A DNA stretch of 30,031 bases from a virus. The stretch covers positions 1 through 30,031 of the IMG/VR virus record IMGVR_UViG_3300033233_000132. One strand, 5' to 3'. Shown in pieces: positions 4,034-13,022 of the stretch (its first letter is position 1; the number at the start of each line of letters is the position of its first letter). The position numbers and the translations under genes are program-made. The notes below the pieces were generated by a model. It did no database searches. It was not told the origin of the DNA and saw only the letters and a list, made by a program, of their open reading frames with translations.

Positions 4034-4539
4034 GACTCTGGGTCCAACCCGACCAGCTCGGCCAGCCGCCTCGATTGCCAGACGCGCTCGGCGGCGTAGG
4101 CGGCGGCGTAAGCGGCCTCGGTGGTGGCGGAGGAGGCAGCGGCGAGCGCGGCACGGTCGGCGTAGTAACCGGCCCCGTCAGACGGCTCGACGCTGGTGTA
4201 CCCGGCACGGGCGGCACACTCATGCTCCCACCGGCGGATCGCGCCATCGGTCCAGCCCGGCACGACGCGGATGGGGCGAGCCCGGCGGACAATCGTCTTG
4301 CCCGTGTCGCTCAGCAGTTCGTCACCGCCGATCTCGACCTCGACGAGCACGGTGCCGGTATCTGCCCAGTACGGGAGCTGATCGACGGTCAGAACGTGGA
4401 CGCCGTTCCGGCACGGCACGAGCGGGCCTGGATCGTGCGCCTCGACCCACGGGCCGGGTCCATCGGTCGGGATCGTCCAGCCGGCGCGGCCGTGCAAGGT
4501 CAGGCCGTTCGGACGCAGGAGCTTGTAGTAGCCGGTCAT
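4030..4539 (-). CDS. Hypothetical phage protein (C-x3-G-x-H motif)
   Basis: 169 residues. The first 100 residues are beta-rich and include GPLVPCRNGVHVLTVDQLPY, reminiscent of small phage domains of unknown function with a Cys-Arg-Asn-Gly-x-His core (DUF7666-like; assigned by eye only). The remainder is Ala/Tyr-rich and helical (AALAAASSATTEAAYAAAYA), ending in a leucine-rich tail. ATGA overlaps on both sides place it between the loader ATPase and the resolvase-like nuclease. No catalytic motif is evident. Confidence 0.65.
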   Translation of the reverse strand: MTGYYKLLRPNGLTLHGRAGWTIPTDGPGPWVEAHDPGPLVPCRNGVHVLTVDQLPYWADTGTVLVEVEIGGDELLSDTGKTIVRRARPIRVVPGWTDGAIRRWEHECAARAGYTSVEPSDGAGYYADRAALAAASSATTEAAYAAAYAAERVWQSRRLAELVGLDPES

Positions 4540-5147
4540 GCCCCGAGCCTCCGATCAGGCGCGGCGATCTCGACAAGCAGGCCGTCCTCGGCGAGCCGAC
4601 TGATCGCCGGCCAGTACGGGCTCGACGTCAGCTCCGCTCCTGACGCGTTCGTCGTCACGAGCGTCGGCAGGCGCGCCTCGTAGCGGGCGTTGACGAGGGC
4701 GTAGACGACCTCCGCGGTCCAGTCCGACGTCCGCTCTCGGCCGAGGTCGTCGAGCACCACGAGCGCCGGATGGCGATGGAGCCGGCGGACCCGGAGCGTC
4801 GTCTCGCGGTCGTCGAGCGGGGCGTCCATCTCGAGCCGGAGGCGGACCATCGCATCGGCGACGTTGATCCAGTCCGGTGCCACGGGACGAGGCGGGATCC
4901 GATCGACGGCCGCGGCGAGTGCCGAGCGGTACGGCTCGATGTCGCGCTCGACGATCGCGGCGACGATCCCGGCAGCAAGGTGGGTCTTGCCCACCCCGGT
5001 CGGCCCGGCGAGCACGAGGCTGCCGATCTCGCCGGCGACGAGCCGTCGGGCGGCAGCGAGCGCCCGGGCAGCCGAGCTCGTCACGGGCTCGAAGCTCTCC
5101 AGGGTCCGGCCCCGGAACCGGGCCGGGACGCTAGCGAGTGATGGCAC
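4536..5147 (-). CDS. DnaC/IstB-like AAA+ ATPase (helicase loader)
   Basis: 203 residues. Walker A is GPTGVGKT at 48-55, Walker B is LVVLDD at 128-133, and a TTNASG segment follows where sensor motifs lie in DnaC-type ATPases. Such proteins load the replicative helicase at an origin. The gene follows the initiator-like gene directly, as P follows O in lambda. The GTG at 5147 is preferred because GGAGGAG stands 8 bases upstream; an ATG at 5165 (six more residues) is possible but would use that sequence as coding. It overlaps the initiator gene by 17 bases. No replicative helicase or polymerase is in the window, so host enzymes may be used. Confidence 0.8.
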   Translation of the reverse strand: MPSLASVPARFRGRTLESFEPVTSSAARALAAARRLVAGEIGSLVLAGPTGVGKTHLAAGIVAAIVERDIEPYRSALAAAVDRIPPRPVAPDWINVADAMVRLRLEMDAPLDDRETTLRVRRLHRHPALVVLDDLGRERTSDWTAEVVYALVNARYEARLPTLVTTNASGAELTSSPYWPAISRLAEDGLLVEIAAPDRRLGA

Positions 5148-6189
5148 GGTCGAGCTCCTCCGCATCGCGGGCAAACGCCGCCGCGACCTCGGCTTCCGAA
5201 CGCTGGTAGCCCCGCGCCGGCGGCGCTCGGCGAACGTCCGGGATCGGGGCGAGCGCCTTGCTGGCGCCGTAGACGTACTGGCGGCCGTCGGTCAACCCCG
5301 GACCTAGCGCGGCCATCGCCGCGATCACGGCTTCGCTCCCGTGGCGATCGATGAGCCTGGCCAGCTCGGTCGCTGCCCGGCCGCCAGGGTCGATGTCGGC
5401 CCGCCGTTTCGAGAGCCAACCCCGGACGACGAGCAGCGGATCGTCGGCAGCGCCGAACAGGTCGCGAGGGTCTCGGGACGAGACGACGTGGTCGCGGTTG
5501 GCGCGCGCCGACGCCAGGCTTGAATCAGCGCGCTCTAGTTCTGGACTAGGACGGGACGGGACGGGACGGGACGGGACGGGATCCCGCGCGCGTGAGGTTG
5601 TTCCAGTGCCGGCACTGTGCGGTTCTGCTGCCCGCACGGTGCCGGCAGCGTGCGGTTCCCGTGCCGGCACTGTGCGGTTGGCGCGCGGTGTCGGATCGGC
5701 ATGCTGCGGTTCTGGTGCAGACTCCTCCTCCTCGGGCTCCTCCGGGCGGCGCTTGCGCGGGTCGAGCCCGACCGCCTCGCGGTAGGTCCGGGGCTCGCCT
5801 GGCAGCCCGTAGACGACGTCGGTCCAGCCCTCAGGGGACGGCAGCCGCGATGGGTACGCCCGCCGCCCGTATGCCTGCCAGGACCACCACTGGACGATCT
5901 GGAGATACGTCTCGCCGCCGACCTCGTAGCGTCGGATCATGCCCGCCTGCTCGAGTTCGTCGAGCGCGTCGCGCAGGGCGGTGAGCTTGACGCGGGAGAG
6001 CATCTTCGGGAAGCACTCACCGAGGACATCGGCCGGATCACCCGCCATCCGTCCCTGGTCATCGGCGCGGACGATCAGTCTCGGCCAGAGCGCATTTGCC
6101 AGGACCGAGCAGCGCGCGAGTGACCGGCTGTCGCACATCTCCGGGTAGATCGAGCGCGGGCCCGGCGTCCCGAACTGTTTGGCGCCCAT
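5131..6189 (-). CDS. Replication initiator-like protein (O-like), with internal DNA repeats
   Basis: 352 residues. The first 110 look like a winged-helix DNA-binding domain typical of phage replisome organisers (RSLARCSVLANALWPRLIVR, then ALDELEQAGMIRRYEVGG). Residues about 125-235 are low-complexity, rich in Pro, Glu, Arg and Ala; the DNA here holds iteron-like repeats (5606-5711) and six ACGGG units (5551-5580). The C-terminal part (about 240-352) is helical and might be a loader-interaction domain. The gene precedes a DnaC-like ATPase, so the pair resembles lambda O and P. The start overlaps the upstream stop by one base. Being an initiator is inferred from fold, context and repeats. Confidence 0.7.
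   Translation of the reverse strand: MGAKQFGTPGPRSIYPEMCDSRSLARCSVLANALWPRLIVRADDQGRMAGDPADVLGECFPKMLSRVKLTALRDALDELEQAGMIRRYEVGGETYLQIVQWWSWQAYGRRAYPSRLPSPEGWTDVVYGLPGEPRTYREAVGLDPRKRRPEEPEEEESAPEPQHADPTPRANRTVPAREPHAAGTVRAAEPHSAGTGTTSRARDPVPSRPVPSRPSPELERADSSLASARANRDHVVSSRDPRDLFGAADDPLLVVRGWLSKRRADIDPGGRAATELARLIDRHGSEAVIAAMAALGPGLTDGRQYVYGASKALAPIPDVRRAPPARGYQRSEAEVAAAFARDAEELDRAITR
5551..5580. repeat. Pentanucleotide tandem repeat, (ACGGG)6
   Basis: Six exact copies of ACGGG read on the plus strand, ending in the GGGATCCC palindrome at 5578-5585. The array lies inside the initiator-like gene, where it encodes the Pro-Val-Pro-Ser-Arg repeats around residues 203-213. Gain or loss of one unit would shift the reading frame. 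Confidence 0.95.
5606..5711. repeat. Iteron-like repeat cluster (candidate replication origin)
   Basis: Three copies of GTGCCGGCACTGTGCGGTT lie at 5606-5624, 5639-5657 (two mismatches) and 5661-5679, with a degenerate fourth copy ending at 5711. End-to-end spacings are 33, 22 and 32 bases, close to multiples of 11, which would put the sites on one face of the helix. Each strong copy contains the palindrome GTGCCGGCAC or one mismatch from it. Because 22 and 32 are not multiples of three, the copies fall in different reading frames, so the conservation is at DNA level. Lambda-type origins lie inside the initiator gene in the same manner. Confidence 0.6.
5632..5655. repeat. 24-base near-perfect palindrome within the iterons
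   Basis: Arms CCGCACG (5632-5638) and CGTGCGG (5649-5655) flank the second repeat core. Counting the core, 11 of 12 base pairs match, the only mismatch being G-G at 5639/5648. It could be a dimer binding site or extrude as a hairpin at an origin. Confidence 0.85.
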
Positions 6190-6377
6190 CAGCCCACCGC
6201 CTTCCTCTCCGCCTCGGCCGCCAGGACGCGCGCGGCGTAGAGTCGCTGGCGCATCTCCAGCAGGCTCATCGGCTCGACCAGGCCGTAGGCGCGCATTAGC
6301 TGCTCCTCGCTCATCGCCGGGATGTCCCGCGGCGGACGGGCGGGCACGAGCGGCAGCCGCTGTCGTGCGTGCTTCAT
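6189..6377 (-). CDS. Small hypothetical protein
   Basis: 62 residues from MKHARQRLPLVPARPPRDIP, a basic, Pro-rich front followed by a helical part (MSEEQLMRAYGLVEP, then LLEMRQRLYAARVLAAEAER). The ATG at 6377 forms an ATGA overlap with the upstream stop, which sets the start; its stop overlaps the initiator-like gene by one base. Position directly before the initiator suggests a replication or regulatory accessory, but no family is recognised. Confidence 0.65.
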   Translation of the reverse strand: MKHARQRLPLVPARPPRDIPAMSEEQLMRAYGLVEPMSLLEMRQRLYAARVLAAEAERKAVG

Positions 6378-6976
6378 CGGGGCCGCTCCTTTGTCATGGC
6401 CGACGGGACTGTATGTTCGACAGTCCGTTCCTCGATCCTCGAACCACAGTCCAGGCATACCCACAGCCGCTCAATATCTTCAACGCCCGGCTGTTGCTTC
6501 CAGCGATGAGGCGCCACGCGACAGACGCTCGCGGTCATAGCTTGTTCGGGTCCGGCAAACGCGCCCACTAATGCGTCCGTTCCCGATAGATCGCCCCACC
6601 ACAGAAGGCATACCCTGTTCGCCGAGGCATCCGTCCAAGGATGAAACGGACCGACATCGTCATCCGGCCTGTCGTCATCCTGGTCCTTCGTGACCAGAGC
6701 GGCGCTCGCTGATGGCGGCAGCCGGTACTCGGGGATTTCCAGGCCGATCGTGAGCGCCATCGTGAGCGTGTCTCGGCGCCTCAGCGTCGTCGGGGCGGCA
6801 CCGATCTCGAGGCCGTTCATGCTGGCGCCAACGACGATGCAATCGGATTCCGCCCCCCACGGTCCGAGCTCGATCAAGATGAACCGCGTCCCCTCGAAGC
6901 GGATCCTCCGAGGCGCGACTGGAACCCGCCGGCCGTCGTCAAGGATGAGAGCCGTGTGCAGTCCTTCGACGCTCAT
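6374..6976 (-). CDS. Hypothetical protein with C-terminal zinc-ribbon-like motif
   Basis: 200 residues from ATG 6976 (MSVEGLHTALILDDGRRVPV), fixed by the ATGA overlap. The N-terminal 95 residues are beta-rich with regular hydrophobic alternation. An acidic linker (QDDDRPDDD) leads to a C-terminal part that ends in a CRVAPHRW...WVCLDCGS arrangement, likely one zinc site. Two domains of unknown function may be joined. Base composition from about 6410 to 6700 looks slightly less GC-rich than the neighbouring genes. Confidence 0.65.
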   Translation of the reverse strand: MSVEGLHTALILDDGRRVPVAPRRIRFEGTRFILIELGPWGAESDCIVVGASMNGLEIGAAPTTLRRRDTLTMALTIGLEIPEYRLPPSASAALVTKDQDDDRPDDDVGPFHPWTDASANRVCLLWWGDLSGTDALVGAFAGPEQAMTASVCRVAPHRWKQQPGVEDIERLWVCLDCGSRIEERTVEHTVPSAMTKERPR

Positions 6977-8532: not shown

Positions 8533-8762
8533 GGCTGGCTCTCCGTCATTGCCACAAGTCGTTCGCCGTTCAGCCGCAGCTCTATCTCGCTTACGTGCTC
8601 GATGCTGGTCGACGAGAAGATGAGGACGCCCTCGGATGAGGACCGGAAACGTTCCCAGGCCTCGCGCAGACAGGCCTTGGCCTCGTCCGATAGTGGTGCC
8701 TCGGTCGTGAGGACGGCGCGGCCGTCCGGCAACACGATGAGTCGAAAGCTGAGCGTGCTCAT
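8529..8762 (-). CDS. Small hypothetical protein
   Basis: 77 residues from ATG 8762 (MSTLSFRLIVLPDGRAVLTT). Alternating beta strands and a central helix (EAKACLREAWERFRSS) suggest a compact alpha/beta fold. It is translationally coupled by ATGA to the RecT-like gene upstream and to the zinc-ribbon gene downstream. No family recognised; position suggests an accessory to recombination. Confidence 0.65.
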   Translation of the reverse strand: MSTLSFRLIVLPDGRAVLTTEAPLSDEAKACLREAWERFRSSSEGVLIFSSTSIEHVSEIELRLNGERLVAMTESQP

Positions 8763-9409
8763 GCCTCGAACCCCGGCAGCATCGAGAAGTCCTCCTCGGG
8801 CGGCACGGCGTTGGGGCTGTCCGTCGCCACGGTGACCGGCTCCGCCTCGGGCTCGTGCTGCTCGGCCTGATCCGGCACCACGGCTTCTCGCCGCGCTCTG
8901 GCCAGCTCAGCGAGCGTCTGCGCCTTCGGCGCCTGGTCGGGAACCTCGACCTCGTCGGACGCCCAGCGTTCGTCGACGGTCGGGGCCGCGACATCGAACG
9001 CCCGCCGTAGGGCCATCGACTCGCCGACCTTGATCGCCATCTCCTCGTCGTTCTTCGCCCCGACCGGATAGCGGCCCGGGTAGGTGATCGGGTGGCTCAT
9101 GTCCTTGCGGTAGACCGTCGCGGTCACCCGCCAGAACCGATCGACCTTGACCGGCGGGGTGACCTCGATCCCGTCGAACACTCCCGAGCGGTGTGCGATG
9201 TGGAGCAGCCCGTCGCGGGTGATGTACGGCTTGCCGTCGATCAGGACGATGTGCTTGAGCAAAGGGTCGAGGTCGTAGCGCGCCGCGATGTTCAGCGCGA
9301 TCTCGCGCTGCTCCGGGGCGAGACGGTCGAAGCCGATCGCCTTGAGGAGCGCGACCGCCCGCTTCTGGTCGGTCGTCTGTGTCGATGCCGGCAGCATCTC
9401 GGTTGTCAT
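8759..9409 (-). CDS. RecT/Bet-like single-strand annealing protein
   Basis: 216 residues. The signature region runs about 30-130: LAPEQREIALNIAARYDLDP, then KHIVLIDGKPYITRDGLLHI, then AIKVGESMALRRAFDV. This ordered pattern (early helix, GKPYITRDG strand-turn, late helix) matches RecT/Bet-type recombinases, which anneal complementary single strands. The C-terminal 50 residues are acidic and Pro-rich, probably a flexible tail. The gene follows a YqaJ-type exonuclease with a 4-base overlap, giving a lambda Red-like two-component recombination system. Confidence 0.85.
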   Translation of the reverse strand: MTTEMLPASTQTTDQKRAVALLKAIGFDRLAPEQREIALNIAARYDLDPLLKHIVLIDGKPYITRDGLLHIAHRSGVFDGIEVTPPVKVDRFWRVTATVYRKDMSHPITYPGRYPVGAKNDEEMAIKVGESMALRRAFDVAAPTVDERWASDEVEVPDQAPKAQTLAELARARREAVVPDQAEQHEPEAEPVTVATDSPNAVPPEEDFSMLPGFEA

Positions 9410-10350
9410 CGCTCATCCTCCTTGTCCATCGCGATGCGGAACGGGCGGAACCCCGGCCTGACCACCGCATGGCGCCCGACGAGCGCGGCGCGCTCCGTCT
9501 CGGGCATCGTCGTGAGCAGTTCCTCGGCGAGCGCCTTCCAGTCGGTCTCGATCCGGTCGCGCGTCCGCCGCCAGAACACCCGCCAGCCCTCGCCGCGAAG
9601 GACCGCGTAGTCCCCCATCCGCGCCTTGATCGCCGTCTCGATCGCCTCCTCGTCGGCCTCGAGCCGCTTCCGACTGGCGCGGACGTCGAGCAGGGCTCGG
9701 ACCGCCTCGGCGAGCTCGGGATCGGCATCGAGCTCCTCCCTGTTGTCGGCGGGGTAGCGGCGCTTGACCGACGCGGCCGACTGGGCGAACGGTCCGCCAG
9801 CGGCGAGCCGGCGCCGGAAGTCCGCGGCGATGGCGACCAGGTCCCCCTGGAGGCTCGGGTCGGCGCGGACGGTGAATGGGCGGATGTCGTCCTCGCCCAC
9901 GGTGAGCGTGGCGACGTCGGCCTCGTCCGCCTCGGCGACGAGGAGCTGCCACTGGACCTGCGCCTCGATGTCCTCCGGCAGGCCGCCGGCAAACCGCGAG
10001 CGGCTGCCGCTCCATTTCAGCTCGACGAGCTTCCCGCCGGCGGTGGCGTCCGGGCTCGCGGCCGCCCAGGTGATCCGGCGGGATTCCCACAGGCCGCGGA
10101 CTCGGCGCACCCGCAGCCCGGTCCGGGCGGCGTAGGCGTCCGCGATCAGGTCTTCGAGCGCCGAGCCGACCCGCATCCGGAGCGTCGAGTCCTGGCCGTC
10201 CTCGCCGAGCTTCTCGTCGGCGAGGTCCTGCTCGCAGCGCCACGGGCTGATCCCGAGCAGGACTGGGATGTCGGTCGCCGTCACGTGGGTCCGGCGCGCC
10301 TCCAGCCATTCGGGGCTGCCCTGGCGCACCGGCAGAACCCGCGGCTTCAT
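9406..10350 (-). CDS. YqaJ-like (lambda Exo-type) exonuclease
   Basis: 314 residues. The N-terminal signature RQGSPEWLEARRTHVTATDI (9-28) is typical of YqaJ/lambda exonuclease domains. Catalytic candidates are Glu66 in GSALEDLIA, Asp101 in SPDATAGG, and Glu110/Lys112 in VELKWS, followed by EAQVQWQLLVAE. The enzyme degrades one strand of duplex DNA so that the adjacent RecT-like protein can load. After about residue 200 the protein is helical, with a long charged helix (KRLEADEEAIETAIKARMGD). The start at 10350 is set by an ATGA overlap. Confidence 0.87.
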   Translation of the reverse strand: MKPRVLPVRQGSPEWLEARRTHVTATDIPVLLGISPWRCEQDLADEKLGEDGQDSTLRMRVGSALEDLIADAYAARTGLRVRRVRGLWESRRITWAAASPDATAGGKLVELKWSGSRSRFAGGLPEDIEAQVQWQLLVAEADEADVATLTVGEDDIRPFTVRADPSLQGDLVAIAADFRRRLAAGGPFAQSAASVKRRYPADNREELDADPELAEAVRALLDVRASRKRLEADEEAIETAIKARMGDYAVLRGEGWRVFWRRTRDRIETDWKALAEELLTTMPETERAALVGRHAVVRPGFRPFRIAMDKEDER

Positions 10351-10547
10351 CGGTCCCCCCACGCGGCTCGCCGCTCGCTCTCGCTCTCCATCCACGCCTT
10401 GGCCGCCGTGATCGGATCAGCCTGCTCGGCCTCCCACTCGCGCTCGACGCGCAGGGCGAACGCGAACAGGTGCTCGGCCCGCTCGTCGTCCTCGGAGAGC
10501 GCGCGGGCGGCGTGCTCGGTCGGGCAGGGTGTCTCGTGGACGCTCAT
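10347..10547 (-). CDS. Small acidic hypothetical protein
   Basis: 66 residues from MSVHETPCPTEHAARALSED, highly acidic and helical (DERAEHLFAFALRVEREWEA). The ATG at 10547 overlaps the stop of the upstream gene as ATGA, which sets the start. It lies directly upstream of the exonuclease. Small acidic proteins in this position may inhibit host nucleases, but there is no sequence evidence for that here. Confidence 0.65.
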   Translation of the reverse strand: MSVHETPCPTEHAARALSEDDERAEHLFAFALRVEREWEAEQADPITAAKAWMESESERRAAWGDR

Positions 10548-12239: not shown

Positions 12240-13022
12240 CTATTCGACCCACCACACTTCGGCGTAGCCGGAGCCACCGTTGCCGCCGGCGTAGGCGGCC
12301 GCCGTAGTCGTCCCCGCACCGCCCCCGCCACCGCCGGTGTTCGCCGTCCCGCTAGTTCCCGCCACGTCCCGACCACCGTCGCCGCCGCCGGCGTTCCCCT
12401 TTCCGACAGTGCCGCCGGTGGCGCCCGAGCCGCCGCCGCCTCCTCCCCCAAAGCCGTTGACGCCCGGCCCACCGTCGCCACCCTTGGCCACACCGGTTGC
12501 ACTATTACCGCCGGCAAAGCCACGCAGCCCAGCCCCGCCGCGCGCGGAGACAGTGCCAGTCGCGCCAGCGCTGGTTGTCGGGACTCCGCCGGCGCCTCCA
12601 GCTCCGCCGCCGCCTCCGGCGGCACTGGTAGTTCCGGATGCGGGGCTGGCGCCTCCCCCATTCGCTCCGGTGTCGGCAGCGGCAGTGGCGGCGGGGGGGG
12701 CGCCAGGACCGCCGCCCTTCGCAGTAGCGAGCGTTCCGAAGGTCGTATCGCCCCCGATCACGCCCGGGTTTGTGCCCGCCGCGCCCCCAGCGCCCCCAGC
12801 GCCGATCGTGATCGCGATCGTGTTCCCGACCGGGGTGCCGGTGACATCGACCACGCGCTCGATGACTTGGCCGCCTCCGCCACCGCCGGCGGCACTGTTC
12901 GCAGTCGCCGGGACGCCACCGCCACCCCCGCCGCCACCGACGAGGAAGACGACGACGTTATCGACGCCGGTCGGGCGGGTCCAATTGCCGCTCGCGGTGA
13001 AGGCTTGACGCTTGAGCGCCAT
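12240..13022 (-). CDS. Polyglycine-rich tail fibre/adhesin-like protein
   Basis: 260 residues. A short conserved front (FTASGNWTRPTGVDNVVVFL) is followed by VGGGGGGGG and then long Gly/Ala runs to the end, closing GGNGGSGYAEVWWVE. The pattern (an N-terminal TxSGxWTxPxGV strand, glycine-rich body, aromatic end) is that of phage glycine-rich fibre proteins, whose glycine runs can form polyglycine-II helices as in T-even-type adhesins. Probably sits at the tail tip or fibre end and contacts the host. The start overlaps the stop of the preceding gene by one base. Confidence 0.75.
   Translation of the reverse strand: MALKRQAFTASGNWTRPTGVDNVVVFLVGGGGGGGGVPATANSAAGGGGGGQVIERVVDVTGTPVGNTIAITIGAGGAGGAAGTNPGVIGGDTTFGTLATAKGGGPGAPPAATAAADTGANGGGASPASGTTSAAGGGGGAGGAGGVPTTSAGATGTVSARGGAGLRGFAGGNSATGVAKGGDGGPGVNGFGGGGGGGSGATGGTVGKGNAGGGDGGRDVAGTSGTANTGGGGGGAGTTTAAAYAGGNGGSGYAEVWWVE

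Follow-up and report, generated by a model that had tools for sequence, protein, structure and literature searches.

Replication origins that lie inside the gene of their own initiator are already known. In lambda and in Stx phages the repeats and the origin are located within the initiator gene (PMC7466680), and at oriL of SPP1 the initiator binds direct repeats inside its own gene 38, with the helicase loader gp39 also being needed (PMC6316719). In the rep gene of pSK41, which encodes a RepA_N initiator, the winged-helix N-terminal domain binds four Rep boxes situated centrally in rep; the linker encoded by the origin is dispensable as protein, the C-terminal domain is separate, and pPR9 differs from pSK41 across the N-terminal domain and the origin region (PMC5703833). 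A RepA initiator gene of a Cluster A mycobacteriophage, described as plasmid-type, suffices for plasmid replication; its authors saw no repeated motifs in the regions that they describe, and suggest that the origin may be situated within repA, as in lambda, or immediately upstream of it (PMC7157519).

The window studied here is a whole IMG/VR virus record (IMGVR_UViG_3300033233_000132; 30,031 bases, ∼70% G+C), a 30 kb piece that may be incomplete. Profile matches place phage capsid and portal genes in the record. A replication initiator gene of 352 aa occupies positions 5131–6189 on the minus strand (phrog_1408, E 2.7e-16; phrog_2149, E 9.1e-14), the significant match to these PHROG profiles spanning its N-terminal domain. 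Directly downstream, at 4536–5174 on the same strand, is a gene for a DnaC/IstB-like helicase loader (phrog_50, E 4e-35; PF01695, E 4.6e-9) which, as called with a TTG start, shares 44 bp with the end of the initiator gene; the initial annotation was right to place a DnaC-like gene there. RecT-like and RecE-like recombination genes lie upstream of the initiator gene (8759–10395). Elsewhere in the window, a minus-strand ORF at 12240–13022 is very glycine-rich and perhaps encodes a tail or fibre protein; long frames are open on the opposite strand too.

As at lambda ori in gene O, the repeats described below lie within the initiator gene, behind the part encoding the N-terminal DNA-binding domain, and a loader gene follows; lambda gene P, which comes after gene O, has the loader role. 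The analogy with lambda made at the outset therefore stands as regards arrangement, but not in other respects: no AT-rich tract was found at the array, where 60 bp windows are 67–75% G+C, the repeat unit is a 13 bp GC-rich dyad at steps that are multiples of 11 bp, and a profile search gave no significant match of the initiator to the lambda O family (phrog_345, E 0.34). When lambda O was put through the same procedure as a positive control, its four annotated iterons (about codons 117–145; 20, 24 and 23 bp apart) were recovered with a score of 57, compared with 58 for the window. With pSK41 rep the window shares a predicted winged-helix N-terminus, mid-gene repeats over a linker and a separate C-terminal part; unlike pSK41 rep, it gives no RepA_N match, its initiator gene is followed by a DnaC-type loader gene, and its array has nothing like the A+T-rich tract described for the Rep box. 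SPP1 oriL similarly has an AT-rich unwinding element that the array does not, and the likeness there is one of arrangement. To Cluster A RepA the likeness is by description, an intragenic origin having been suggested there too. Actinophage genes annotated as ‘RepA-like replication initiator’ (Brujita 63, Phayonce 66, Leroy 89) have a homologous winged helix (30–37% identity), and many actinophage-type genes carry phased repeats at the same position in the gene as the window. They differ from the window in their motif, which in Brujita and Phayonce, though not Leroy, is TCGCGA, in having a second cluster in the winged-helix code, and in the GGAACAG-type 8 bp repeats that follow.

An AlphaFold2 model of the initiator, built from 27 sequences (mean pLDDT 69.6), predicts an N-terminal winged helix, a low-confidence linker and a helical C-terminal region. 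Ten-residue means of pLDDT are 95–98 over residues 21–100, so that the winged helix claimed initially is modelled at high confidence; they are 38–59 over residues 131–260 and 43–86 beyond. Comparison of the model with known folds returned many winged helices, the best being a Fur model (Z 8.6). Entries 4pql and 4pt7 (‘N-terminal domain of DNA binding protein’ and ‘initiator’; Z 7.5 and 7.2), which we take to be RepA_N plasmid initiators, were among the matches; as far as the model goes, the outcome of the fold search is a generic winged helix. The RepA_N domain (pfam06970) is absent among Pfam matches up to E 1, the only match being DUF7650 at 0.073. A sequence search against solved structures returned nothing beyond G-protein beta-5 chains (E 0.12 or worse), which we put down to chance. 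The repeats encode residues 160–195, within the low-confidence part after the winged helix. This linker is, to judge from the model, probably disordered, and the DNA at the array would thus be free to act as an origin.

A phased array of dyads in the initiator gene

The repeats and spacings reported initially, namely three 19-mers and a weak fourth at steps of 33, 22 and 32 bp, are confirmed. GTGCCGGCACTGTGCGGTT occurs exactly at 5606–5624 and 5661–5679 and with two mismatches at 5639–5657; all copies are on the minus strand, on which the first reads AACCGCACAGTGCCGGCAC. Three matches with up to three mismatches compare with 0.01 expected from dinucleotide shuffles. The palindrome said to be present in each copy, or one base from it, extends perfectly over 10 bp in the copies at 5606 and 5661 and differs by one base in that at 5639; the weak fourth copy (GGATCGGCAT, 5693–5711), however, is four bases off and keeps instead the dyad CGGCA-N3-TGCGG. 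Across the four 19 bp copies the variable columns are 2–4 and 10–12, corresponding to the flank and the dyad spacer, while the half-sites CGGCA and TGCGG, separated by three free bases, are invariant. The better repeat unit is not the 19-mer but a 13 bp dyad, CSGCA-N3-TGCSG. Five such dyads, starting at 5610, 5632, 5643, 5665 and 5697, form an array at 5610–5709, the proposed binding array of the initiator, in which successive steps of 22, 11, 22 and 32 bp are about multiples of 11 bp.

All five exact copies of the dyad CSGCANNNTGCSG in the 30 kb record fall within 5610–5709 (0.44 expected), and 2000 synonymous shuffles of the initiator gene gave a mean of 0.26 and a maximum of two. The dinucleotide and synonymous shuffles together rule out a chance origin of the repeats. 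The dyad was defined post hoc, after the window and one relative, L087, had been seen, so that only the relatives L089 and L161 are independent of its choice; the lags and linker limits used below were also picked post hoc, the linker limits by eye. With one mismatch allowed, dyad counts are near chance in the window, L087 and L089.

The neighbourhood of the array is the most strongly helically phased stretch of the record, with a score of 65 as compared with 24 for the next stretch and a mean of 6.5. This score includes the adjoining 5 bp tandem repeat at 5549–5583 (GGACG on the plus strand, TCCCG-type on the coding strand); when most of the tandem repeat is excluded it is 49, still above all of 500 synonymous shuffles.

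Protein-level selection was considered as a source of the repeats. Because 33 and 22 + 32 = 54 are multiples of 3, the copies at 5606, 5639 and 5693 share one frame, and only the copy at 5661–5679, identical in DNA to that at 5606, is read in a different one. The initial argument, that DNA conserved in different frames is beyond what protein selection can explain, holds to the extent that neither 22 nor 32 is divisible by 3; with one of four copies off-frame it is nevertheless weaker than it had seemed. Three of the four copies give similar peptides in one frame, as would be expected if they encoded a useful EPHAAGT-type peptide repeat. We give this explanation almost no credence: the off-frame copy has the same DNA, none of 200 synonymous shuffles reached the observed family score when all copies were taken together, and the 11 bp-step repeats of L161 (see below) rotate through the frames, which rules out protein-level selection alone. 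Off-frame copies by themselves gave a score reached in 2/200 synonymous shuffles, and the family test gave a weaker result when the repeat was cut to 15 bases (3/40).

The least stable 30 bp of the initiator gene, 5520–5549, lie just beyond the array and its 5 bp repeats and are a candidate unwinding site; they rank in the top 0.6% of the record, but with 60 bp windows only in about the top 11%. Cumulative GC skew of this 30 kb piece has its minimum near 12–14 kb rather than at the array; with no turn at the array, skew as an origin marker is contrary or uninformative.

These properties bear on the alternative in which the array, bound by the initiator or by a different regulator of the phage, would control expression or copy number and not the start of replication. 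Intragenic arrays of binding sites can regulate, the array has no AT-rich tract of its own and its unwinding is a postulated step, all of which would fit such a role. On the other hand, the exact dyad is found nowhere else in the record, where the count with one mismatch (18) is about that expected by chance (14.2), so that a dispersed operator was rejected, and the array is placed as in known initiator-internal origins. Control of this kind instead of initiation appears unlikely.

Recurrence of the dyad in close relatives

The survey for exact dyads covered 160 loci, of which 149 had no match and 11 had one; L002, among the latter, duplicates the window. In genome contigs no relatives were found by the window protein alone, and profile A1 found at least 13 loci. 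Pairs of dyads spaced by 33 bp were found in 12 stretches of viral contigs; of those compared with the initiator profile, L168 alone, the contig of L087 itself, gave a match.

The L087 initiator is 63% identical to that of the window over the winged helix. In the 6.4 kb examined, both of its exact dyads fall within the linker (0.14 expected), an additional dyad with one mismatch is present and the copies stand at exact 33 bp steps. As in the window, a 5 bp tandem repeat, here (CCCGG)n, comes after the repeats. In L089 (47% identity over the winged helix) the single exact dyad is again in the linker (0.09 expected; reached by 17/200 shuffles) and one-mismatch copies adjoin it. Counts of TGCSG/CSGCA half-sites in the linker are 12 in the window and 8 in L089, neither of which was reached by any of 300 synonymous shuffles; the count in L087 is modestly high (11/300). 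The linkers of L087 and L089 are otherwise unlike that of the window, yet the dyad recurs in them. L161 and L162, which are near-identical to each other and have 40% identity over the winged helix, have in their linkers four copies of GCCGGAA followed by GCCGGCG, each exactly 11 bp from the next, so that the repeats of L161 rotate through the reading frames. Helical lags in the linker were above 500/500 synonymous shuffles in the window, L087, L089 and L162, other lags being raised too in L162 (4/200).

The fourth close relative, L001, has a short gene (206 aa) whose product is 58–60% identical in the winged helix. No exact dyad was found in its linker, the helical signal is weaker (2/500 shuffles reach it) and the half-site count is ordinary (78/300). 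A less specific 8-mer statistic failed to single out L087 (34/60), L089 (12/60) or L001 (42/60). The dyad or its core is thus kept at about 11 bp steps in the linkers of three of the four close relatives, and not convincingly in L001. Relatives that keep the protein while lacking the repeats had been named initially as evidence that would speak against an origin; those three are not of this kind, and L001 is doubtful.

At L003, an initiator-like gene (4247–4981) encodes a C-terminal region like that of the window (E 9e-8 in a single comparison) and the loader is 52% identical; its N-terminal domain gave no match to the winged-helix profile. It was considered as a natural domain swap and rejected: the GTTAC repeats of its linker are mostly at 12 bp steps, in frame, and for this reason L003 was left out as evidence. 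At L004, a gene adjoining a DnaC-like loader (5609–6496) has a predicted linker with many GATGCGAA-type 12 bp units, and the inverted repeat GCGATGCG-AA-CGCATCGC is also in this linker.

Phased palindromes in the wider initiator family

A sample of the wider family comprised 86 ORFs that matched the profile, representing 75 unique genes, or 66 after removal of near-duplicates and of genes shorter than 480 bases; L161 and L162 are absent from all counts on these 66, and 239 ORFs from the same loci served as controls. At least three copies of TCGCGA are present in 45 of the 66 initiator genes. Some palindromic 6-mer occurs at least three times within 45 bp in 45/66 initiators, as compared with 2/239 controls and 9/1320 synonymous shuffles, a test for which the repeats of the window are too far apart. 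In eight loci out of eight (L078–L082 and L084–L086) a TCGCGA cluster, mostly at 10–11 bp steps, is found just after the winged helix; such a cluster is absent from the L083, L077 and L001 initiator genes and from that of the window.

Several repeat statistics were tried, the 8-mer being the least telling. A six-lag statistic marked 54/66 initiators and 5/239 controls but is inflated by 5 and 8 bp tandem repeats, and we therefore place weight on lags 10–11. For lags 10 + 11, none of 50 synonymous shuffles reached the observed value in 42/66 initiators (31/45 TCGCGA genes and 11/21 others), as compared with 4/239 control ORFs; 14/45 TCGCGA genes and 10/21 others have no excess at lags 10–11. 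The corresponding figures for TCGCGA genes, other initiators and controls were 19/45, 7/21 and 2/239 at lags 11 + 22, 0/45, 0/21 and 5/239 at lags 13 + 26, and 0/45, 5/21 and 3/239 at the control lags 14 + 19. Since lags 10–11 score and control lags do not, the family signal is tied to one helical turn, five non-TCGCGA genes excepted. In the 11 positive genes of the 21 without TCGCGA, the best 165 bp window starts between 114 bp before and 39 bp after the end of the winged helix.

Conservation at synonymous sites, a check proposed in the initial annotation, was assessed in the actinophage-type branch and was positive. Codons 1–128 of 38 of the 45 TCGCGA genes were aligned without gaps, seven of another subtype being skipped. 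Excess codon identity was 0.43 for codons 57–64, 0.42 for codons 65–72 and 0.36 for codons 121–128, and 0.006–0.185 for the remaining 13 eight-codon blocks. The TCGCGA clusters, at gene positions of about 158–195 and from 371 on, span codons 53–66 and 124 onward, and the three blocks of high conservation therefore overlap the arrays. The fit is imperfect, in that the block with the first TCGCGA copy reaches only 0.17 and codons 68–72 lie beyond the first cluster. Shared ancestry of the TCGCGA genes means that their counts cannot be taken as independent; contrasts made within a gene are unaffected by this.

The first of these clusters, mostly at 10–11 bp steps and inside the winged-helix code, is a second cluster found in the same eight loci (two copies in L085, three in the other seven), and may be a further array for binding or serve in autoregulation. 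Directly after the TCGCGA array, at gene positions 419–458 of L084 and similarly in many actinophage-type initiators, are four to seven GGAACAG-type units (GTGEQGNRGTGEQG); repeated at exactly 8 bp, they are read in all three frames, and they may be an unwinding or loading element. Across the 45 TCGCGA genes, duplex stability shows a modest dip of 0.07–0.12 at 20–60 bp after the last TCGCG, with similar or larger dips (up to 0.18) elsewhere. The Dehalococcoidia MAG initiator at L148 (about 2390–2600) seems to carry an extra domain in the linker, presumably resembling a T5orf172/GIY-YIG-like domain.

In the initiator genes of L129, L134, L138, L141 and L144, TCCGGA at steps of mostly 11 and 22 bp replaces or accompanies TCGCGA, which suggests, at the level of sequence, a shift of the recognition motif. 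Sites for a host DNA-binding protein, such as a nucleoid or origin factor, would be an alternative to sites for the phage initiator, which is the putative cognate protein. The motif, however, varies with initiator lineage (CGGCA/GCCGG, TCGCGA, TCCGGA, GTGCAC) and is found in the initiator's own gene, and its core is mostly kept among the closest relatives; we regard a host protein as a highly improbable user of the sites.

The family data also bear on whether the repeats of the window arose neutrally, through slippage and duplication tolerated by a disordered linker, and play no part in binding. The linker does contain a 5 bp tandem repeat, and three copies share one frame. Neutral expansion does not account readily for variation confined to columns 2–4 and 10–12 around two invariant half-sites, for the presence of the dyad in L087 and L089 too, whose linkers are unlike in other respects, for lags of 10–11 being favoured and 13 + 26 not, or for the codons conserved near the arrays of actinophage-type genes. 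It is, in our view, very unlikely.

A proposed origin in initiator linker DNA

The repeats, their phasing, their location and their conservation at the DNA level in relatives are direct observations, from which we infer binding, unwinding and origin function: the array is likely to be both the binding site of the protein that its own gene encodes and the theta-type replication origin of the phage. Under this proposal, the winged-helix domains of several initiator molecules would bind the dyads, and since these stand at multiples of ∼11 bp, or one helical turn, the bound molecules would line up along a single face of the helix. This nucleoprotein complex would then strain and open nearby DNA, for which the weak 30 bp at 5520–5549 by the 5 bp tandem repeats are the candidate, and the C-terminal region of the initiator together with the DnaC-like loader would bring in the host helicase.

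While initiator-internal origins as such are familiar, a family-wide rule and the actinophage arrays seem to be unreported. A search of the open-access literature by titles and abstract openings, with few subscription journals covered, found no such rule or arrays and no mapped origin for this initiator family. We see a slightly better than even case for a broader proposition, in which winged-helix phage initiators, as a large family to which those of Mycobacterium and Gordonia phages belong, would have the origin in the DNA of their own linker, as arrayed short palindromes in phase with one turn of the helix. The sequence of the palindrome would change between lineages, and array and protein would form a self-contained, swappable module that does without an AT-rich tract, opening at short tandem repeats instead.

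Because the palindrome changes between protein lineages, both the origin and the recognition motif could be read off the initiator gene. If the proposition is true, it would provide a rule, requiring sequence only, for locating origins and the DNA motif of the initiator in many phages of high-GC hosts, and the family would supply small plasmid replicons. For several of these phages the records give Mycobacterium smegmatis as host, in which the idea is directly testable. It would also be a further demonstration that one stretch of DNA can be an array of binding sites and coding sequence at once, a double use made possible by the probable disorder of the protein segment that it encodes.
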